Assembly (NCBI GenBank): GCA_029560585.1 | Contig: JAKQKQ010000296.1 | Location: 1-64,000 of the forward strand | Reading direction: 5' to 3' | DNA length: 64,000 nucleotides | Source of the DNA: Verrucomicrobiota bacterium | Lineage (GTDB): Bacteria; Verrucomicrobiota; Verrucomicrobiia; JADLBR01 | Part shown: piece after piece, positions 34,601-51,343 of the stretch | How positions within the stretch are numbered: position 1 is the first letter of the stretch | How the letters are laid out: each line of letters starts with the position of its first letter | Program-made: the position numbers and the translations under genes | The notes under the pieces: model-generated | Told to the model about the DNA's origin: nothing | Seen by the model: only the letters and a program-made list of their open reading frames with translations | Databases searched by the model: none

Positions 34601-35539
34601 CTACTGCATGGCGCCGGTAACCTGGGCGGCGGTGCGGCCGGTGAGCTTGTCGCGGGCATCCTTGGCGGCGGTGAGGTCCGGCTGCAGCCGCAGCGCCTCC
34701 TCGTATGCGACCAGCGCCTCGGCGTCCTTTTGCTGGGCGGAGAGCAATTGGCCTTTTAGCAACCAGGCCCGAGGGGCCTGCGGGACCAGCCGCAGGCATG
34801 CCTCGATCTCGGCGGTGGCTTCTGGCAGGCGGCCGAGAACGGCGAGTGCACCGGAGCGGAGAAAACGGATCTGGCCGTCGTTGGGATCGCTGGCCAGCGC
34901 GCGGTCCAGGTCGGACAGTGCGTCCGTGCCACGTCCAAGTTGAAGGAGCATGGTGACTCGACCGAGCGTCGCAGTGGGATTCGTCGGCTCGATCGCCAGA
35001 ACGGCCGAGTAGGCGGCGAGGGCCTCACTGCTCTGGGCCTGGGCATCCAAGAGTTGGGCGCGCTGGAGCAACGCGGGTGTGAAGGCAGGGTGGTGGCTGA
35101 TGATCCGGTCGAGCTCTTTTTTGGCCTGATCCGTCATTCCCTGCGCCATAAGGGCGATGGTGCGAAGCCAGAGGTTTGTCACCGCATTGGGCTGGACGTC
35201 TAGCGCGGTGTTCAGGTCCTTGATGGCGGCCGAGGGGTTATTCTGGCGAAGGCGGACCTCCGCCCGGAGCGCCAGGGCCTCGGTTTGAAAGGGATCGGTC
35301 TGGAGGAGGTAGGAGAGGGCTCTTTCCGCCTGGTCGAATTCTCCCCGGGCGATCGCCTGCCGCGAGAATTTGATGGGAGCAAACGCGGATTGGACGGCGG
35401 CGGTGGAGGACTGCGTTTCGGCGGGCCTCCAGGGGTGTTGGAGTCGGTATGCACCGTAGCCTATTCCGCCCAAGAGGGCGGCCAAGGCTGCCAACGGCCA
35501 TGCGGTGTGCAGGGCAACGTCCCACGCGTATCGATCCAA
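34601..35539 (-). CDS. membrane-anchored TPR protein
   Basis: This 312-residue protein has one N-terminal membrane helix (about 12-32) and no cleaved signal, then about seven tetratricopeptide repeats (from about 58 to 300), for example AIARGEFDQAERALSYLLQ and SEALAAYSAVLAIEPTNP. TPR arrays act as protein-binding scaffolds. It is divergent from the winged-helix/ATPase operon and resembles in plan the TPR membrane protein at 42754-43908. The function is unknown. Confidence 0.75.
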   Translation of the reverse strand: MDRYAWDVALHTAWPLAALAALLGGIGYGAYRLQHPWRPAETQSSTAAVQSAFAPIKFSRQAIARGEFDQAERALSYLLQTDPFQTEALALRAEVRLRQNNPSAAIKDLNTALDVQPNAVTNLWLRTIALMAQGMTDQAKKELDRIISHHPAFTPALLQRAQLLDAQAQSSEALAAYSAVLAIEPTNPTATLGRVTMLLQLGRGTDALSDLDRALASDPNDGQIRFLRSGALAVLGRLPEATAEIEACLRLVPQAPRAWLLKGQLLSAQQKDAEALVAYEEALRLQPDLTAAKDARDKLTGRTAAQVTGAMQ

Positions 35540-35574: not shown

Positions 35575-35592
35575 AATTCCATAATCGGAATT
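35575..35592. promoter_or_regulatory. inverted repeat in an AT-rich divergent promoter region
   Basis: AATTCC (35575-35580) and GGAATT (35587-35592) form a perfect 6-bp inverted repeat with a 6-nt spacer, within a broader imperfect dyad ending in ATTATTGG. It lies between the divergent TPR gene and the winged-helix gene in the most AT-rich DNA nearby. It could be an operator for the downstream operon, whose first gene encodes winged-helix folds. Confidence 0.35.
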
Positions 35593-35653: not shown

Positions 35654-36430
35654 ATGGCGAGAATTAGGCAGGCGGGGGACAGGAAGAGGCCCAAGGCATC
35701 GACAGGTGCGATGGCCGGCGAAGCGGCGCGTGTTTCGGTGCTTGTTGGCCTGCGGCGTGCGGGGGGGCGTGGGGCGACTTTGGTCCAGCTGGGGTGTCGG
35801 AAAGTTGGGGATGCGAAGTATCGGGCCATTCGGGCTCTTGTGGGCGAGGGGGCGGTGGTTGTTTTCGGGGATGGGCGCAACGCCTTGGCCGTGCTGGCTG
35901 ATCGCGCGCCGACCGGGGAGGCGCTGGCGCGGAAGATCGATGCGCGCGCATCGATGAAGCGGGGTTGCGCCCTTGGGCGCGAGGACGTGGCCGCGTGGTG
36001 CAGCGCGGCAGAGGAGTTCCTGCTGGATGGGACGTTGCGATTACTGGTGAAGTCGGGGCGGCTGATAGCGTTGCGGCGCGGGGAGGCGACCTTCTATACG
36101 CACGCGGACAGTTTTGTTGCGGTCCAACCGGGGTCACGGCCCAAGGTTTCCGAGCCGGAGAAGCCGTCGGGACACGATGTGCGGTTTCGGGTTGTGGAGG
36201 CATATAGGCGCCTTGTGGAACGGGATGGATTCAGCAACGTGATTATCGCGGACCTCCGCCGGGAGGCTGACATTTCACAGGAGCAATTGGTGGCCCACCT
36301 GCTGGATCAGAGCCGTTGCGGGAGGGCGCATCTGGGGCGCGGAGATTGGTCGCTGGCCGATGAGGCGACGCGTCAGGCGGCGGTGATTGTCGGAGGCGAG
36401 CCGCACTTGAGAGTGCGGCTGGTGGTATAA
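35654..36430 (+). CDS. multi-winged-helix protein, first gene of an ATPase/nuclease operon
   Basis: This protein of about 258 residues seems to be built of tandem winged-helix domains. One lies near 28-70 (SVLVGLRRAGGRGATLVQLG), one near 100-155 (VAAWCSAAEEFLLDGTLRLL ... TFYTHADSF), and one at about 175-255 (VEAYRRLVERDGFSNVIIAD ... LRVRLVV). The last resembles the SelB-like wing modules that accompany some defence ATPases. The start is uncertain: ATG 35654 or ATG 35711 (AGGTG nearby). It ends 5 nt before the ATPase gene. Roles could be DNA binding, autoregulation or bridging between ATPase and DNA. No named family is recognised. Confidence 0.65.
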   Translation: MARIRQAGDRKRPKASTGAMAGEAARVSVLVGLRRAGGRGATLVQLGCRKVGDAKYRAIRALVGEGAVVVFGDGRNALAVLADRAPTGEALARKIDARASMKRGCALGREDVAAWCSAAEEFLLDGTLRLLVKSGRLIALRRGEATFYTHADSFVAVQPGSRPKVSEPEKPSGHDVRFRVVEAYRRLVERDGFSNVIIADLRREADISQEQLVAHLLDQSRCGRAHLGRGDWSLADEATRQAAVIVGGEPHLRVRLVV

Positions 36431-36435
36431 TCGAT

Positions 36436-38496
36436 ATGGCAAATGGACAGCCAGCCGGTGATCGACAGAACCCGTTCGAGGACAATATCGTATTTGAGCC
36501 GCGGCGAGTGGAGCGCCCTGTGACCGGGCTCAATGACGCGGCCTTGGACGCGCTGGCCGCGCGCGTCAGGCCGTTGCTTGGGGGACGGCGTCCGAGGGTG
36601 GATGCCCGGCTGCCCCACGCGGTTCTCGTGACGTCGGTGGAGCCCGGGTTTGGCAAGAGCCATCTGATCGGGCGGCTCTTGGTCAAGTTGGGGGGCGACG
36701 CCACGCTGGTGTACGTGAGGCCCTTTCAGAATCCCGCGACATGTTGGCGCTCGATCCTTCTTCGGGCGGTGCAGGAGTTGGATTATCCCGAGGGTGGGCC
36801 ATCCGGATCGACCCCTCTTGATGCGCTGGCGTGTCATGTCATAGCGGAACTGGTGGCGCGCGCGATACGGGCGGGGCTGGTGGAGGGCGTCGAGCGCGAG
36901 CAGGCGGCACTGCATGTGTGCTCCGATCCGGTGCGCGTTTTTGGTGGGCAGGACGAGGCATGGTCGGGCTGGTTGCGGCGGGAGTTTGGGAATCTGCTGC
37001 CTTTCATGGAAAGCGAACTGCGCAGGTCTGGCCTAGACCTGAAGGCGCTGTCCGGGTCATGGCTGCGCGCCTTTTTCCATTACATTTATTCGCGCGAGGA
37101 TTTTTTGCGGCGAACCATGTGTGTGGATTGGATGAAGGGGGAAGCCCTTGATCCGGGCGAGATCGGCGAGATGGGCATCAGGCCTTCGGATCTGCCCAGA
37201 CCCGATGACTCCGCTGCGGAGCTCAACGACGTGTGCAAGGGCAGGCTTTTCGACCTGTGCGCGCTGGCCGGCTTCCATCGGCCGTTCGTGTTCTGTTTTG
37301 ACCAGACGGAGCTGTACGGCGATGATGCGGAGCTGGCGGCCGTCTTCGGGACGGTGGTGGCCGAGATGGTGCAAAACGGCCTGAATCAGATGACGGTGGT
37401 GACGGCGAATCTGGACCCCTGGACGCGACTCATTCTGCCGCGGTTGCAGTTGGCCTACCGGGACCGATTCTGCAGTCCTGCGATCGAACTGGAGGGGCTG
37501 GATATAGGTCAGGCGCGCGAACTGGCGGGCAGGCGGCTCGAAGAACGCAGGGTCGATGAGGCGACGTCGAGGGTTTTTCTCTCGGCCGAATGGTTGGGCG
37601 GCGTGTTTTCCGAGAAGCAGAGGCATGGGGCGCGGCATTTTCTGCAGCTATGCCGCGCGCGCTGGGAGGTGCTGGCGGGCCGCGAGGCGACGGTTGCGCC
37701 GGAGGCGGGGCTGGCGGAGCTCTACGCGCGCTGCGCCGAAGGGTTCCTGCAGAAACCCAAGCGCCTGCAGTATGAGCCCGACATCTTGCAGTGGCTGGTT
37801 CAGGAGGTGGCGCGGGGCTGGCGTGGGGTGATGGTCTCCGCCCATAGGCACCCGAAGGGCTATTTCTCGGTGCAGTGGGATCTTCCGGGGCGGCGGGTGG
37901 TGTTCGGGTTTGAGAACGGGTCGAACTGGAAACGCTGGGAGGGCATAGCGCGAGACTCGGCGGCGTTGGCGGAAGGGGCGCGCGCGGTGGGCGTGGGCGC
38001 GAAGTCGGTGTTGCTGAGGGTGAGGCGGCATCCGCCGATTCCGGGGTCTTGGAGGATTGCTCCAGATATCGAGGCGGCGAAGCGGTCCCACCTGCACGTT
38101 TTTCGGCTGACGGACAGGCAGCTCGCCCATTTGTATGGTGCCCATGAGTTGTACGCGAACGCGGTGCAGGGGGACATCTCGGCGAGCGGTGTCGAGGTGA
38201 TGCAATTTGTCCGAGGGCGACTGGAATCCTTTTGGCGGCGGCTGTCGGAGCCGCCTGGCGCAGACATCGGGGGCGATGCGTCGGACATTTTTGCGCGTGA
38301 ACCGGAGGAGATTTTGCTCGATGAGGTGCACCGGGTCGTCGGGGAAGCACTCTTCATAGGACTGGAGCACCTTGCGGCTCGGATGTTGCGCCCCTGGGGC
38401 GATGCGGCGATTCTGGATGCGTGCCGACACGAACCGGCGATTGAAGTCGTCGGGGGTGACGGGGCTGTGGCATTGCGATGGCGAACCTACGATTGA
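36436..38496 (+). CDS. ORC/Cdc6-like AAA ATPase of an unassigned operon
   Basis: This 686-residue P-loop ATPase begins with NPFEDNIVF and a short linker. Walker A is SVEPGFGKSH (K74, S75; the usual first Gly is replaced). Walker B is FVFCFDQTEL (D289, Gln in place of Glu), followed by a sensor-like VVTANLD and an Arg-containing LQLAYRDRF. A helical lid follows (LEGLDIGQARELAGRRLEE, then ARHFLQLCRARWEVL), as in ORC/TniB/BrxC-like ATPases. The C-terminal 230 residues are unassigned (ANAVQGDISASGVEVMQF). There is no signal peptide or membrane segment. It is coupled on both sides: 5 nt after the winged-helix gene and 19 nt overlap with the next. Confidence 0.7.
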   Translation: MANGQPAGDRQNPFEDNIVFEPRRVERPVTGLNDAALDALAARVRPLLGGRRPRVDARLPHAVLVTSVEPGFGKSHLIGRLLVKLGGDATLVYVRPFQNPATCWRSILLRAVQELDYPEGGPSGSTPLDALACHVIAELVARAIRAGLVEGVEREQAALHVCSDPVRVFGGQDEAWSGWLRREFGNLLPFMESELRRSGLDLKALSGSWLRAFFHYIYSREDFLRRTMCVDWMKGEALDPGEIGEMGIRPSDLPRPDDSAAELNDVCKGRLFDLCALAGFHRPFVFCFDQTELYGDDAELAAVFGTVVAEMVQNGLNQMTVVTANLDPWTRLILPRLQLAYRDRFCSPAIELEGLDIGQARELAGRRLEERRVDEATSRVFLSAEWLGGVFSEKQRHGARHFLQLCRARWEVLAGREATVAPEAGLAELYARCAEGFLQKPKRLQYEPDILQWLVQEVARGWRGVMVSAHRHPKGYFSVQWDLPGRRVVFGFENGSNWKRWEGIARDSAALAEGARAVGVGAKSVLLRVRRHPPIPGSWRIAPDIEAAKRSHLHVFRLTDRQLAHLYGAHELYANAVQGDISASGVEVMQFVRGRLESFWRRLSEPPGADIGGDASDIFAREPEEILLDEVHRVVGEALFIGLEHLAARMLRPWGDAAILDACRHEPAIEVVGGDGAVALRWRTYD

Positions 38497-39245
38497 GTCT
38501 GGCGGAACTGAAGCGGGCATGCGCGGATCCGCGCTGGCGGTCGGAATTGGCCGAAGGCCGGCGACCGCCGGTGCGCGCGGGCGGCACATCGGCAGGGGGA
38601 CGAGGGGTGGGCGCCCTGTTTCGCGACGGGGTCATGGTGCTGGTGGATCGACTGTTGGATCCTGACGCGCCCCGGACGACACCGATGACCCAGTGGCCTT
38701 CGCTCTGGCGCGAGATGCATCGGCTGTGGGCGGGCCAGGTACTCGATGAGATGGTGGGGGCGGGGCGGGTGGCGGATGCGGCGCGTCTTGCGGAATCCTG
38801 GCGACGATGGTGCGCGGAGGCGGTCGGCTGGCGGGTGGGGCAGGGGCCGCGACTCGATTGGCGGAGAGTTTTTCCGAGGCAAGAGTTTGCCCTGGAGGGG
38901 GTCGTTTTGCCGGTGGGCGACCGGGCGGTATGTCTCGACGGTGCACTGGTGGGTGTGCGGAGGCCGGCGGGGCGAGGACTTGAACTGTCGGACTGCCGCG
39001 GGGAGAAGTCCGCCGACGCAAAGGATGACCTCCTGGATCTGGCCATTGAAAGGCGAGTCTTGGGCGCCGCTCGACCCGGGCTGAGTGCCGTCTTTGTCCT
39101 GGACTACTTCCTTCCGGATCGGGAGACGGTGGTCATGTCTGGAGACGAACTGGAAGCGGTTGCCGCGGAGCGACTCGATCCGGTTCTCGCGCAACTCGCT
39201 GCGCTGCCCGCACCGCCGTTGGAAACTGGGTCCGATGTGCGCTAG
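38478..39245 (+). CDS. probable PD-(D/E)XK (RecB/Cas4-like) nuclease
   Basis: This 255-residue protein has an N-terminal helical part (1-140) and a C-terminal part that follows the RecB/Cas4-type nuclease plan. A first acid lies in AVCLDGALVGVRR (D154). The core strand is LELSDCRGEKS (D172, R174, K177), where D-x-K or E-x-K is expected. A helix follows (DDLLDLAIERRVLG) in the place of the usual D-x-L-Q-L-x-x-Y helix, then a last strand (AVFVLDYFLPD). Because the metal motif is not textbook, activity is uncertain. It overlaps the ATPase gene by 19 nt. Confidence 0.5.
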   Translation: MANLRLSLAELKRACADPRWRSELAEGRRPPVRAGGTSAGGRGVGALFRDGVMVLVDRLLDPDAPRTTPMTQWPSLWREMHRLWAGQVLDEMVGAGRVADAARLAESWRRWCAEAVGWRVGQGPRLDWRRVFPRQEFALEGVVLPVGDRAVCLDGALVGVRRPAGRGLELSDCRGEKSADAKDDLLDLAIERRVLGAARPGLSAVFVLDYFLPDRETVVMSGDELEAVAAERLDPVLAQLAALPAPPLETGSDVR

Positions 39246-39259
39246 ATTTAGGGGTTAAC

Positions 39260-39532
39260 ATGACGAAATTTCTTGTTTTCATCGCGGTGATTGTCGGGCT
39301 GGTGATGTGGATTCGGCGGGGACTCAGGCGGCTGGTGCGAAGGTCGGCCAGTTTCCAGGGGAGGCCGGGGGAGAGGAGCGTGCGGCTGGTGCCCTTCTAC
39401 GATGCCGAGAACAAGAAAGTGATCATGATTCCCGAGGACGAACTGGAGCCCGGCATGCGCAAGGTTCGGATTCCCGGGCTCGATACCGAAGCATACGTCT
39501 CGCAGGATGATCGAGCCCGACGGAACACCTGA
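39260..39532 (+). CDS. small single-helix membrane protein
   Basis: This 90-residue protein has one N-terminal membrane helix (MTKFLVFIAVIVGLVMWI), a strongly basic stretch (RRGLRRLVRR) and a soluble tail ending in DTEAYVSQDDRARRNT. An AGGGG box lies just before the ATG, and it follows the nuclease-like gene by 14 nt, so it is probably the fourth gene of that operon. It could also be an unrelated gene read from the same promoter. The family is not recognised. Confidence 0.6.
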   Translation: MTKFLVFIAVIVGLVMWIRRGLRRLVRRSASFQGRPGERSVRLVPFYDAENKKVIMIPEDELEPGMRKVRIPGLDTEAYVSQDDRARRNT

Positions 39533-44010: not shown

Positions 44011-45828
44011 ATGGCTTCGTTCAGTTGGTTGGCTAGGGGTCTTGCGGCTCGCACGAGCCGCGAAGGGCCGGCGAAGGCGAGGATCGAGCCGCGTCGGCCC
44101 GAGGGGGGCGGAGTGTCGGGGGTGGCTGAAGCGATCCCGTCGCCGTTGGTTGGCAAGGGTCCGGTTCGACCTGCGGCGGGCGAGCGGCAGGGGGTGGTTC
44201 CAGGGGCGCCGCGGAAAGAACCGAGCGTGGGGGGCATACCGGACAATGAGACGATCGAATTATCGCTGAGGAGTGTGCTGGAGTGCATACCCCTGCTGTT
44301 TCTCGCGGGTGATGCAGAAAAGTTGGTGGCGTCACCAGAGGCGCAGACTCGCACCGTAAGATTGCCGCTCCAGCGATTGCTGGCGCAGTTGCCAGCGGGC
44401 CGAATCGAGTTTCGGTTTGCCGATCTGAAGCCACAGATACCCGACGAGTTTCTTGGGGAGGAAGCATCGGAGTGGGAACGCGGAGAAGTGCCGATCTTGC
44501 TGGATCTGGCCGAAATCGTGAAACGTCTTCCGTCGGCTACGCTCGCGCGGCGGGGCGACCAACTGGAGGTTCCGCGCGCGTTGGAGCAGGGCCTGCCAGA
44601 CCTTGTGGTGTGTCCCGAGAAGCGTCCCATGGAGGCACCGTTGCGCGAAACGGCGAGGTTAGCGATGGCGGCTTCGTCGATGCCGATCTTACCGGGGAGT
44701 CTGCTCGGGCCGGAGACGGCGAGTTCGGCACCGGCCGCACCGGCGGGCAATGTGCCGCAGGAGTCTGGGGAATCTCGCAAAGAGGTGATATTGCCCGGCG
44801 CGGTTCCCGAGGCAGGACCAGGGGCCGAACCCGTGAGCCCGGCGCAGCCACTGTTCGTGAGGAAGACGGCACCGAAGCCTCTTCTCAAGTTGCAAATTCG
44901 GGAGTCTGCCGGGCCGAAGGGTGATGAGGCAGGAAAGGCCCTTGCGCTGCGGCGGATGGGGTTGGCGCCTTCGGCGGAGCCTGCCAGTGCGTCGGCCCGG
45001 GAGGTGCCGGGGATCGAGAAGAGACCGCATGAGGCCGGGGGCCCATCGGAAGGCCAGCAGGATTTGCGGGCGCAATTCGGGCTCAAGGCCAAGGTGGAGC
45101 CGTTGTTTTCCGCGCCCGGAGAAAAGGGCAAGACCGCAGGTGCCAAACCCGTGTCCGAGGAAAAGGGCGAGGCCACAGGTGCCAAGCCAGGGTCCGAGGA
45201 AAAGGGCGAGGCCACAGGTGCCAAGCCAGGGTCCGTGGGATTGGGTGCCGTTGGCGTGTCGGCTCAAGGGGTTTTGGCGTCGCCCGGTCTGCCGGTGGCG
45301 ATGCGCCTGCGATCGGTGCCGCGGGCGCGGTCGGGACAGGTTCCGTCGCTGGTTGAGAGGGCGCCCGTCGCCGGGCCGGATCAGGCGCCGAAGGTCGCGA
45401 GCGAACGGACGCGGGCGGCCAAGGGGCTGGCGCGCTGGTTGGGGGTTGGACCCGGCCGCGACATTCTGATCCGAGAGATCCCGGCAATCCTCACGCGTCT
45501 GCCGGGTGTTTCCGGCGCAATCATCTCAGATAGCGAGGCGTTAACGGTGGCGAGACAGCTTCCGGCGGGGATTCCCGAGGAGGCCATCAGCAGCAGCGCG
45601 TCACTGCTCTACAAGAGGCTCAGGCATGCCGCGGGCGAACTCGGCGGAGGCTTTAAGAACCAGACTCTCGTGGGGCTGGGCCAGTGGACGCTGGTCATCA
45701 CCTGCGAGCCGCCATTTTTCCTCACGACGGTGCACACATCCCATGTTGTGTCGCCGCGGCTGGCTCGCCGGATGCGCAAGGTCGCTAGGGCTCTGGCACG
45801 GCTCGAGGCCGCCCGACCCGTGGGGTGA
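44011..45828 (+). CDS. large disordered protein with C-terminal roadblock/LC7 domain
   Basis: This 605-residue protein has a middle folded part (about 75-200; ETIELSLRSVLECIPLLFL) and a long Pro, Ala, Glu and Gly rich linker with a 13-residue tandem repeat. The C-terminal roadblock/LC7-type domain is about 485-600 (LIREIPAILTRLPGVSGAII ... SASLLYKRL ... LVITCEPPFFLTTVH). Roadblock proteins such as MglB act as GAPs or partners of MglA-like GTPases, and an mglA gene lies 5 kb downstream. The central part shows SRSVLxxIP-like features found in some roadblock-linked proteins. A polarity or motility role is inferred. Confidence 0.75.
   Translation: MASFSWLARGLAARTSREGPAKARIEPRRPEGGGVSGVAEAIPSPLVGKGPVRPAAGERQGVVPGAPRKEPSVGGIPDNETIELSLRSVLECIPLLFLAGDAEKLVASPEAQTRTVRLPLQRLLAQLPAGRIEFRFADLKPQIPDEFLGEEASEWERGEVPILLDLAEIVKRLPSATLARRGDQLEVPRALEQGLPDLVVCPEKRPMEAPLRETARLAMAASSMPILPGSLLGPETASSAPAAPAGNVPQESGESRKEVILPGAVPEAGPGAEPVSPAQPLFVRKTAPKPLLKLQIRESAGPKGDEAGKALALRRMGLAPSAEPASASAREVPGIEKRPHEAGGPSEGQQDLRAQFGLKAKVEPLFSAPGEKGKTAGAKPVSEEKGEATGAKPGSEEKGEATGAKPGSVGLGAVGVSAQGVLASPGLPVAMRLRSVPRARSGQVPSLVERAPVAGPDQAPKVASERTRAAKGLARWLGVGPGRDILIREIPAILTRLPGVSGAIISDSEALTVARQLPAGIPEEAISSSASLLYKRLRHAAGELGGGFKNQTLVGLGQWTLVITCEPPFFLTTVHTSHVVSPRLARRMRKVARALARLEAARPVG
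45118..45234 (+). repeat. three tandem 39-bp units in the roadblock gene
   Basis: The units 45118-45156, 45157-45195 and 45196-45234 encode 13-residue blocks of the form EEKGEATGAKPGS. The last two are identical and the first has diverged. The reading frame is kept, and the region is predicted to be disordered. Confidence 0.9.
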
Positions 45829-47129: not shown

Positions 47130-49607
47130 TCATCGCGGGCGCCAGCACAAGTATACGTGGTTCACACTGATGTCACCCTCGCGTGGCGCAAGCTTGGCGG
47201 TTTCGATGGTCGCTTTTCCCACGTCATACCGAGCAGCGATTTCGGCTAGAGTCCGATCACATTCTTCCTTGCTGGACGCCAGCTGTCGTTGAATCTCGTC
47301 ACGTTTCTCCTCGGCCAGCTCAATGTCTTGGCCCTCCTTGTCCACTTTCGAGAGTTTGCGAGCCACCGTCGCTCCCCGGCGGAGATCCGTTGCAGAGAGG
47401 CCACCAGATCGGGAAGAAGGGGTAAGCACTTTCAAAATGCCTCGGAGAGCTGAATCCTTGGGTGCCACGGCATCAACCATTTTCGACAGGCCTTTGCGAA
47501 CAATTCCACTTCCGAGGACGGTCGTTGCCACTTCAACCCACGTTTGGGACTTCTCACGGGATTGATCGCCCATCTCCTTTTCGAGGCGCAGCTCCGCTTG
47601 CCGAAGCTTATTTTCGAGAGACACGCGGTTCTTTTCAAATCGATCCAAAGCTTCACTGACTTCTGGCGTTTTGCGCTGCTCAAGCGCGGCGGCCACTCGG
47701 GTCCTAAAATCGCCCTCGATTTCGCCGGGGCGGGAGGTGAGTTTGAGCGAGGGGCAGCGGAGGAGGGTGAATTTCTTTTGCTGGTAGAGGAATTGAGCGA
47801 GGGATTTTGCCCATGCGGCATAGTTCTTGGCCTGGAGGGCGCAGGCGGGGAGTTCTGCGAAGCGGGCGCCCGCGGGGGGCGCGGCGTTCCCCTGCGGGGC
47901 GGTGCCATCCCTGAGATCGGCCTGGTCCCAGTCGATGGCATCGGCCCGGTCAGGGACATCGAGCAGGGCATGGACGGTGGCCCATTCATCGATGCCAGCC
48001 GAGGCGCTGACGAAGTGCAACTTGGCCTCGGCGAGAAGGGCGGGTTGGAGTGTGATTTCTCCTCCGGCGGCAGCGCGTTCCGTCGGTGGGAGGAATGCCT
48101 GCCTGATATCCGCGGGGACGGGTGGAGCGGAGGTGGAAGCGCCGGGCAGGGGCGCTGCGGCCTTTGCAGGGGTCGATGGCTGTGGTGCCGCAGTTTTTCG
48201 GGCCGCCATGAGCTTCTCGATCTGCGCGCGGGTCATGGGGCCACCGAGGTAGGAGAGCGCCCAGCGCGTCTGGAAGAGGGCAGGGCCATCCTCGTGGACG
48301 TTGTTCATGAGGAAGACGCGCTTGCCGAGGCCGGAAATCATCTTGTCGATGGCGGCGCGGTCGAACGCGTGCCCGGCGCCCTGGGAGGCGCCCTCGAGGC
48401 CGTCGAGGATGCGGGCCTTATCGCGCTCGGTCTGGAGGCGTCCGATGAACCAGGTGCCGCAGTTGGCGAGGCCCTTGTAGTCGAGGTCCACGGGGTTTTG
48501 GGTGGCGAGGACGCAGCCGACGCCGAAGGCCCGGGCCTGTTTCAGCAGGGTGAGCATCGGGCCCTTGGACGGGGGCGCGGCCGAGGGCGGGAAGTAACCG
48601 AAGATCTCGTCCATGTAGAGGATGGCCCTGAGGCTGGATGTGCCTGGCTGACCGCGCATCCAGGAGATCGTCTCGTTGAGCAGGAGGGTGACGAAGAACA
48701 TTCGCTCGGCATCGGAGAGGTGCGCGATCGAGAAGATGGCCAGCCGGGGTTTTCCATCCGGCGTGTAGAGGATTCGCTGGATGTCGAGGGGCTCACCCTG
48801 GGTCCAGGCGGCGAATCCGGGAGAGGCCAAAAGGCCATTGAGGCGCATGGCGAGCGCGGAACGATCCTTGGACGGGTAGAAAGATTCCAGGTCGAGGACC
48901 CCGAGTCGATCGAAAGGTGGGGACTGGATGGAGCGGATCAGGTCGGCGATGGCTACGTCGCGGCCTTCGCGCCAAGCGGCCTCGAGGATATTGGCAATGA
49001 GGATGTGCTCGCGGCTCTGGAGAGGATCGGCATCGATCCCGAGGAGGGCCAAGAGGCCGGACGTGGCGCCGACGATTCGATCGCGGAGAAGGTCGGCATC
49101 ATCGAGGAGAGAAGGCGGTGGTGCCGCGAAGGAGCGGAGCGCCGAGACAGGAAGCCCGGCGGTGCTGCCGGGGGTGTAGACGACGGCGTCGGCGGCCTCC
49201 GCGAATCGGCGGATGCGGTCGGGGGACTGTCCCCAGGCCGCGAGGCCCTCGCGCCATGCCTTGGCGGTGTTGGCGGCGAGTTCGGCGGTGCCGATGCCCT
49301 GTCGGGAGGCCTCGGCGGGATCGATCCAGGGGGCGAAGTCGTCGGGGCGCAGATCGGGGAAGGTGAGGAGGAGGTTGGCGAGATCGCCTTTGGGGTCGAT
49401 GACGATGGCTGGGATGCCATCGATCGCGGCCTCCTCGAGGAGCGACACGCAGAGGCCGGTCTTGCCGCTGCCGGTCATGCCGACGCACAGCGCATGGGTC
49501 GTGAGATCCTTCGCGTCGTAGAGCAGCGGTGTGTTCGTGGCCTTGCCGGTGGCGGGATCGAACTCCTTACCGAGATAGAAGACTCCCAATTTTTCAAAAT
49601 CGGTCAT
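47130..49607 (-). CDS. HerA/FtsK-type ATPase with coiled-coil C-terminus
   Basis: This 825-residue P-loop ATPase is of the HerA/DUF87 group. Walker A is GMTGSGKT (43-50), the next strand PAIVIDPKGDLANLL is typical, and Walker B lies in ILYMDEIFGYFPP (about 325-337), followed by QARAFGVGCVLATQNP and an Arg-rich FIGRLQTERDKARI. After a Pro/Ala linker (about 490-530) come a mixed domain and a long coiled coil (about 680-800). HerA-type motors translocate DNA or protein and are common in defence and secretion modules. Base composition changes within the gene: the last 600 nt or so are lower in GC. The start at 49607 begins at MTDFEKLGVFYLG. Confidence 0.78.
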   Translation of the reverse strand: MTDFEKLGVFYLGKEFDPATGKATNTPLLYDAKDLTTHALCVGMTGSGKTGLCVSLLEEAAIDGIPAIVIDPKGDLANLLLTFPDLRPDDFAPWIDPAEASRQGIGTAELAANTAKAWREGLAAWGQSPDRIRRFAEAADAVVYTPGSTAGLPVSALRSFAAPPPSLLDDADLLRDRIVGATSGLLALLGIDADPLQSREHILIANILEAAWREGRDVAIADLIRSIQSPPFDRLGVLDLESFYPSKDRSALAMRLNGLLASPGFAAWTQGEPLDIQRILYTPDGKPRLAIFSIAHLSDAERMFFVTLLLNETISWMRGQPGTSSLRAILYMDEIFGYFPPSAAPPSKGPMLTLLKQARAFGVGCVLATQNPVDLDYKGLANCGTWFIGRLQTERDKARILDGLEGASQGAGHAFDRAAIDKMISGLGKRVFLMNNVHEDGPALFQTRWALSYLGGPMTRAQIEKLMAARKTAAPQPSTPAKAAAPLPGASTSAPPVPADIRQAFLPPTERAAAGGEITLQPALLAEAKLHFVSASAGIDEWATVHALLDVPDRADAIDWDQADLRDGTAPQGNAAPPAGARFAELPACALQAKNYAAWAKSLAQFLYQQKKFTLLRCPSLKLTSRPGEIEGDFRTRVAAALEQRKTPEVSEALDRFEKNRVSLENKLRQAELRLEKEMGDQSREKSQTWVEVATTVLGSGIVRKGLSKMVDAVAPKDSALRGILKVLTPSSRSGGLSATDLRRGATVARKLSKVDKEGQDIELAEEKRDEIQRQLASSKEECDRTLAEIAARYDVGKATIETAKLAPREGDISVNHVYLCWRPR

Positions 49608-49901
49608 GGGCCCAATCATCCGCGCTTCGCCAGCGCCCCGCAAATCCAAAAGAAGAGCGGATGACGTGCCGGGGACGTGGGGGGCCGATGGCGGTCGCAG
49701 CAGAACAACCATCTCCTCGGTCGCTGTAGGAATGAAGCAGAGTCTGGGGGCGCGACCGTTGTGTATGCGGTGGCAAAGGGAAGGGGGGACACCGCTTTTG
49801 TCTCCGCCGGAGCCGATGGTCCCGGCTCGCGCTTGCGCGCGATTCGCGCGTGGAATCGCCTGCAAGCAGGCTCCTGCGATTTGGTGTCGGAATTCTCGAG
49901 C
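49608..49901. other. gap with dispersed repeat sequence
   Basis: This 294-nt stretch contains, from about 49755, sequence related to the 146-bp element at 20911 (gcggtggca, gacaccgcttttg, ggagccgatgg), then gcgcgcgattcgcgcgtgga and gcctgcaagcaggctcctgc at 49859-49878. I see no gene; the upstream extension of the ATPase frame here is repeat-derived. Confidence 0.6.
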
Positions 49902-50426: not shown

Positions 50427-50740
50427 GAGTGGAGGGGAGGGTAGGACATTTCTGGCCGGGTGCAAGGCCAGAAGCAGGGGATTCCTCGTCTTGGGCTCGG
50501 TTGGGAGGCGGGAACCCGGCAGGGCTTTTGGTTCGATCGACCGAAGCCGTTGGAGTCCAAGCTTTAGCCTGTTTCGTGTCCGATTCAGTCTAGAGGCTGA
50601 ACTCCAACAGGTTGCTGTCGAATAACCAAAAGCCCTGGGGACCCCGTGGCGGGCGTCGCTTTTTTATTGCAACTCGGTGTGGGCATGAGAGTTTTACAAA
50701 CTTCCGTGGGCGGCGCCGGTCGTCCGGGATGGTATCGGTT
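50427..50740. promoter_or_regulatory. divergent gap between the FHA gene and mglA
   Basis: The 314-nt gap should hold promoters for both directions. A small hairpin, CCCGTGGCGGG, near 50645-50656 is followed closely by a six-T run (about 50662-50667). This could be a weak terminator or leader structure on the + strand. No named riboswitch pattern is recognised. Confidence 0.3.
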
Positions 50741-51343
50741 ATGGCTTACATTAACTACGCGCATCGGTTGGTGCAGCTTAAGATCGTGTACTGCGGGTGC
50801 GGTCTCTGCGGCAAGACCACGAATCTCCAGGTGGTGCACGCCTCGCTGCGGAACACGCAGAAGAGCGAGCTGGTGTCGCTTGCGACGCGCGAGGATCGGA
50901 CCCTGCTGTTTGATTTCATGTCGCTGGAGACGAAACTCTTGAACGGTTTTTCGGTTCGTTTTCAGCTGTATACGGTGCCGGGGCAATCCATCTATACGAG
51001 CACGAGACGACTGGTGCTCAACGGTGCCGACGGGGTGGTCTTCGTGGCCGATTCACAGCCGGGGCGATTCCAGGAAAACGTGAGCGCGTTTCGCGACATG
51101 GAGACGAATCTGGTCGAGAATCGGCTCTCTCTCGAACAGGTGCCCCACGTGCTTCAATATAACAAGCGGGACATGCCGAACGCGGTGTCGCTGGAATACC
51201 TTGAGGACGCGTTGAACAATCGCTATCCCCGGGTGCCGGCGTACCAGTCGGTTGCGACGACCGGTTTCGGTGTTATGGAGACCCTCAACAGTATCGCCGG
51301 GCTGGTTGTGCAGCGGTTCAGTACGGCGGCGGCGTCGCGTTAG
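50741..51343 (+). CDS. mglA: MglA-like small GTPase
   Basis: This 200-residue Ras-like GTPase is of the MglA group, which sets cell polarity and motility direction in Myxococcus and occurs widely with roadblock partners. G1 is GCGLCGKTTN (MglA usually has GPGLCGKTTN, so Pro reads Cys here). G3 is YTVPGQ, and G4 is QYNKRD. The start at MAYINYAHRLVQLKIVY matches the family. A roadblock-domain protein (44011-45828), an FHA protein and pilT in this window could belong to the same signalling and motility network. Confidence 0.9.
   Translation: MAYINYAHRLVQLKIVYCGCGLCGKTTNLQVVHASLRNTQKSELVSLATREDRTLLFDFMSLETKLLNGFSVRFQLYTVPGQSIYTSTRRLVLNGADGVVFVADSQPGRFQENVSAFRDMETNLVENRLSLEQVPHVLQYNKRDMPNAVSLEYLEDALNNRYPRVPAYQSVATTGFGVMETLNSIAGLVVQRFSTAAASR

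Follow-up and report, generated by a model that had tools for sequence, protein, structure and literature searches.

A mobile four-gene cassette in Verrucomicrobiota that may derive from Orc/Cdc6 HerA/FtsK capture systems and carries a degenerate nuclease domain

What is the function of a compact operon that reads as a DNA-binding protein, an ORC-like ATPase, a nuclease-fold protein and a small membrane protein, and that lies among metabolic genes? The question is raised by a 64,000-nt stretch of a Verrucomicrobiota genome (positions 1 to 64,000 of contig JAKQKQ010000296.1, from a 7.06-Mb assembly of 336 contigs; hereafter, the window), in which four genes follow one another on the plus strand: gene 1 (35654–36430; a 258-aa DNA-binding protein), gene 2 (36436–38496; a 686-aa ORC/Cdc6-like AAA+ ATPase), gene 3 (38478–39245; a 255-aa RecB/Cas4-family PD-(D/E)XK domain whose active site appears dead) and gene 4 (39260–39532; a 90-aa single-pass membrane protein). 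On recheck, the initial annotation was exact in these coordinates and in the couplings between the genes (a 5-nt gap, a 19-nt overlap and a 14-nt gap). All four genes recur, in the same order, in one congeneric genome (contig JADLBR010000226.1, 'Verrucomicrobiia bacterium isolate SJ186'; hereafter, the sister), with window–sister identities of 82, 73 and 76% for genes 2, 3 and 4; the arrangement is therefore not a product of chance, and the four-gene operon is real. Searches of Pfam, NCBIfam and PADLOC with the four proteins gave no match above threshold, which is why the genes could not initially be placed.

Upstream of gene 1, a divergent TPR-protein gene starts at 35539 on the minus strand, and the intergenic stretch has a GC content of 43%, compared with 64% for the window. 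Of the AT-rich divergent promoter with a palindrome that had been proposed here, the divergent gene and the AT-richer stretch were recovered, as was the palindrome itself (AATTCC-N6-GGAATT, 35575–35592), but not its significance: 18% of shuffles of the stretch held one as good, and it was rejected as an operator. In the sister, a different, 17-nt palindrome (CGGCATTTTAAATGCCG; L015:11854–11870) lies just upstream of gene 1 and is a possible autoregulation site. Elsewhere in the window, a Roadblock/LC7-domain protein and a small Ras/Arf-like GTPase are encoded a few kilobases apart (44011–45828 and 50612–51343), possibly as a bacterial GTPase-regulator pair.

The operon could be placed through its relatives. 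When the ATPase was searched for in 57 related genomes and then in 384 genomes of the class, full-length homologues were recovered from five other genomes, all of one family, among the 57, and more among the 384. In these relatives, which are spread across Verrucomicrobiota, a gene 1 homologue lies immediately upstream of the ATPase gene (a winged-helix (wH) gene is upstream in 13 of the 15 full-length cases), and a PDDEXK_1 nuclease plus a DNA motor either forms part of the ATPase protein or is encoded by the next gene. The nuclease domain matches PDDEXK_1 (Pfam E values of 1 × 10−9 to 1 × 10−15) and resembles UvrD/REP-type DNA helicase-nuclease and ExoV structures; the motor is mostly FtsK_SpoIIIE with FtsK-alpha, and otherwise HerA (DUF87, HerA_C) in G135 or a RuvB-like AAA in G004, with the motor half closest in PADLOC to SspH (DptH/DndH; E = 1 × 10−61). 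The order extends beyond the class, to G386 (L114; a 302-aa wH-reading open reading frame (ORF), a 703-aa AAA protein and a 707-aa nuclease-FtsK protein). The three-gene order, whose conservation had been put forward as a check, recurs in other families, and the reading that a DNA-binding wH protein is encoded together with an ORC-like AAA ATPase and a protein of PD-(D/E)XK fold in a conserved operon of anti-invader type was upheld. The statement that it matches no known system was not: seen through its relatives, the operon fits a described kind, the Orc/Cdc6 'HerA/FtsK capture' anti-invader systems that Rakesh, Aravind and Krishnan predicted in 2024 (PMC10853773, cited throughout for the sections considered here), and no match had been found because the window copy is a stripped-down variant.

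Across the family, the output parts vary on a constant wH and AAA core, as judged from an AAA-domain tree on which at least three changes of motor state, at least three of fusion state and at least four of nuclease state were counted, several of its deep branches being unresolved and some long. The nuclease is dead in L062 (the second G137 locus) and absent from L019 and L065. The ATPase homologues that stand alone, which would have spoken against a system, are divergent paralogues (L021, L023–L026 and L067–L072) and a broken copy in G174, and not the full-length relatives. As for defence islands, in which enrichment would have supported a system, several relatives adjoin defence genes (for example, a PDC-S15 gene in G034 and a mad2-like gene in G067, in addition to G135, below), but the window copy is not in a defence island, its surroundings being made up of metabolic genes (glycogen synthase, GalT-like, GH57, sulfatase, radical SAM and TPR).

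Several individual loci deserve description in their own right. In G135 (L063:7981–17929), the wH, AAA and nuclease-HerA genes are followed within ~100 nt by type I-G cas3g, cas8g and cas7g, and the HerA of this system is akin to the solitary HerA family found in these genomes. The fusion of G004, from the same order (L022:4510–7926), carries a RuvB-like AAA with RuvB_C (E = 1 × 10−13) behind the AAA and a live PDDEXK_1 domain, in place of FtsK; our literature search found no paper on such a RuvB-bearing version of a capture system. The AAA-nuclease-FtsK fusion of G050 (L018:6172–9805) is split by a frame change, and in its close relative G018 (L019) the nuclease part has disappeared through an in-frame loss. 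There is also a second paralogue, AAA-only and 648–689 aa long, with an altered DQ motif (L021, L023–L026 and L071), which in L021 and L024–L026 occupies a fixed chromosomal place between citrate synthase-reading and uvrA-reading genes, with neither wH nor nuclease, and is there probably an exapted single-gene form. Other families hold more distant AAA relatives that are solitary (L067–L070 and L072); in some of these, the C-terminal domain is preceded by a long, Pro-rich linker and the DQ motif is changed (VDHLD, LDHLD). Searches of viral contigs and phage records recovered no relatives, and those of plasmids a single C-terminal AAA-family fragment (L113:12001–12768), IS-flanked and adjoining an IS6 transposase gene on plasmid pOB3b1 of Methylosinus trichosporium OB3b, by which the AAA family reaches plasmids of Alphaproteobacteria.

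Gene 2 bears the Orc/Cdc6-type AAA+ ATPase signature of capture systems. Across 16 homologues, G71, G73 and K74 of its Walker A motif (GFGKS) and F288-D289-Q290-x-E292 are invariant, in agreement with the earlier emphasis on K74 and D289-Q290, and its relatives exceed the Pfam cut-offs for AAA_16/AAA_22. Residues ~445–600 (37768–38235, plus strand) form a conserved alpha+beta domain (DYxSVxW...FGxExSxNWKRW...R...PIPGxxW), modelled as helix-strand-strand-strand-helix at a confidence (pLDDT 34) too low to serve as proof. Capture systems are described as always having an inactive REase (iREase) that separates the AAA core from the C-terminal wHTH (PMC10853773), and by its position the domain may be this iREase. 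Residues ~622–686 (38299–38493, plus strand) are predicted, from their sequence pattern, to fold as a wHTH-like domain; this end aligns only in the split-type L061, L063 and L064 and the sister, and is missing from the fused relatives. AlphaFold2 models of genes 2 and 3, with the window sequence and one orthologue as input, were too poor to use (pLDDT 34 and 49), and a search of the PDB with the AAA profile returned nothing useful.

For gene 1, the window–sister pair aligned with the upstream genes of 11 relatives (hhalign, 99.9%, E = 6 × 10−34). In the PDB, every match of the family profile was weak (E = 0.015–1.1) and to an HTH or wH protein, and because these matches fall on three separate stretches (9–57, 76–139 and 152–197), gene 1 is best read as probably comprising three successive (winged-)helix-turn-helix units. 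This reading resembles the triple wHTH described for DndG and SspB (PMC10853773).

Gene 3 is homologous to RecB/Cas4-type PD-(D/E)XK domains: it aligns end to end with 11 active domains of relatives (hhalign, 99.4%, E = 7 × 10−22) and stops before the motor. It occupies the place of the nuclease-motor gene and, in both window and sister, corresponds to the nuclease half alone. The 11 live relatives show no variation in the columns G, F-H, E, G-x-x-D, K, Q and Y, and in the window and sister five active-site residues are replaced (H>R, D>V/A, K>R, Q>D and Y>E); the catalytic set H..GxxD..(D/E)xK..QxxxY is absent from gene 3, the corresponding residues in the window being R49, V158, D172-C-R174, D187 and E191, with D172 (of the D-Y-K triplet) the sole motif residue retained. 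Of the PD-(D/E)XK plan initially assigned through D154, D172 and K177, the fold is supported by the alignment and D172 does sit at a motif position, but D154 falls on a column without a catalytic role, and the motif lysine position is R174, not K177. Judged by these replacements, the nuclease is almost certainly dead in the window, and the working nuclease part that had been assumed is not supported. The window's reading frames yielded no motor signature, and the one FtsK domain in each of the two genomes (G000 and G001) lies in a frame of 815 or 813 aa, consistent with chromosomal FtsK.

The protein encoded by gene 4 begins with a hydrophobic helix, continues with an Arg-rich stretch and ends in a soluble tail, and a search of 39 relatives and 365 class genomes found no homologue outside the cassette. 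The best evidence that it belongs to the unit is that the sequence shared with the sister, a single blastn block at 75% identity (35719–39498), begins a short way into gene 1 and stops just short of the end of gene 4. Nothing else is common to the window and the sister contig by blastn, the flanks are unrelated on both sides and a counterpart of the window's flanking TPR gene lies on another contig of the sister genome (G001); such a precise block between unrelated flanks suggests that the cassette, including gene 4, moves as one unit. Window–sister comparisons (Nei–Gojobori) gave dN/dS values of 0.26, 0.11, 0.15 and 0.11 for genes 1 to 4, which are approximate because dS (1.0–1.5) is near saturation, although all four are well below 1, and the genes look preserved by selection. 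Among the genomes searched, only the window genome and the sister carry this motorless form.

Together, these results lead us to favour, with about even confidence, a mobile four-gene cassette derived from Orc/Cdc6–REase–HerA/FtsK capture systems, in which the nuclease-plus-pump output has been lost and perhaps replaced. In complete systems, the ORC ATPase is proposed to place the apparatus on DNA, the motor to pump the invader DNA and the nuclease to cut it (PMC10853773). In the cassette, gene 1 would read DNA features of the invader; gene 2 would bind ATP, assemble on that invader DNA and switch state; and gene 3, keeping the shape of a nuclease domain, could serve as a scaffold or DNA-binding part. 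Because the cassette has no live nuclease or pump of its own, the response would have to be produced otherwise: most simply via the membrane protein of gene 4, acting as an anchor or toxic effector, or, less simply, by recruiting host enzymes, and we infer that gene 4 or host proteins carry the output. The more specific version, in which recognition of invader DNA by the wH, ORC-AAA and pseudo-nuclease proteins triggers a membrane response through gene 4 and not DNA cleavage, is a tentative one that we consider possible.

The absence of a motor could also mean that the cassette is still a capture system and works with a motor in trans, either a solitary HerA-like ATPase or the chromosomal FtsK, together with an unlinked nuclease. 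A solitary 911-aa HerA-like ATPase (DUF87, HerA_C; 47130–49865, minus strand) does lie ~8 kb from the cassette, and the motor captured in G135 shares 30% identity with it over 385 aa (E = 2 × 10−28). However, this HerA is conserved at 52–54% identity in unrelated families and is present at that level in G137 and G070, whose systems carry their own FtsK, and in the sister the cassette is not beside HerA, of which only a contig-edge fragment was seen. With no linkage in relatives, the window HerA was dismissed as the cassette's missing motor, and supply in trans was kept as a rival that we judge unlikely. Somewhat less likely, and disfavoured, is a decaying remnant, that is, a nuclease-motor system that has lost its function and is eroding. 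The missing motor, the disappearance of every nuclease motif tested, one aspartate excepted, and the recurrence of nuclease loss in the family (L019, L062 and L065) are as expected of such a remnant, but four ORFs have stayed intact in two genomes at dS ~1, the low dN/dS extends to every gene, including the dead nuclease, and the cassette has relocated as an intact unit.

That relocation, which leaves the cassette at sites that differ between two closely related genomes, together with the pairing of an ORC-like ATPase with an HTH protein, might suggest mobile-element machinery, namely a TniB/Mu-B-like ATPase set serving its own transposition and not defence. Yet the cassette contains no transposase or recombinase, the wH, AAA and gene 3 proteins have no transposition family matches and in the relatives the set includes a live RecB-type nuclease and a DNA pump, and we consider this reading quite improbable. 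Least probable is the module originally envisaged, an active DNA-cleaving defence or DNA-processing system of BREX- or Wadjet-like type with a working PD-(D/E)XK nuclease: the fold relationship of gene 3 to nucleases speaks for it, but neither genome retains the H, D, K, Q or Y of the motif, and genes 1–4, which have no BREX or Wadjet match in PADLOC, are not a system of either type.

If the favoured derivation from capture systems is correct, the cassette is a natural version, with neither motor nor live nuclease and apparently under selection in two genomes, that separates the recognition and ATPase core from its output, and it allows one to ask whether the core alone is protective and whether the membrane protein does the damage. 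The family as a whole exemplifies repeated exchange of the DNA motor (FtsK, HerA, RuvB-like or none) on a constant wH-AAA core.

Finally, we compared the cassette with known systems. With BREX (BrxC) and the BREX-related capture systems (PMC12839542, in the sections considered here) it shares an ORC/Cdc6-type ATPase with wHTH and the HerA/FtsK capture theme, but there is no PglZ, methyltransferase or BrxA/BrxB among the four genes, BrxC is ~1200 aa and no profile matched; likewise, the SMC-like JetC of Wadjet and its partners had no PADLOC match to genes 1–4. The resemblance to DndFGH/SspFGH (DptFGH) lies in the relatives' motor half, near SspH/DndH, and in the multi-wHTH partner, similar to DndG in role; in contrast, the window has no P-loop kinase DndF, large DndH or motor, its AAA is of ORC type and genes 1–4 gave no PADLOC match to DndF, DndG or DndH. 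RecB/Cas4-type nucleases (PDDEXK_1; AdnAB/RecB-like and exonuclease V) are related through the PDDEXK_1 domain of the relatives, whereas gene 3 has lost five residues of the catalytic set and is not fused to a helicase. Closest are the capture systems themselves, a subset of which includes a gene for a protein with 2–4 wHTH (PMC10853773); the considered literature on them yielded no experiment on any member. Shared with these are the Orc/Cdc6 AAA with an extra alpha+beta domain and a C-terminal wHTH-like end, a probable multi-wHTH protein and the PD-(D/E)XK domain. In the window's relatives, the nuclease is live and FtsK comes with FtsK-alpha, which agrees with PMC10853773. The considered sections of PMC10853773 and PMC12839542 make no mention of a motorless form with dead nuclease and membrane protein, or of a RuvB-like motor. 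The window copy differs from them by its small membrane protein, and because it has neither the HerA/FtsK motor nor the active REase of capture systems, we do not file it as a member; its classification as a reduced derivative of the capture systems is well supported.
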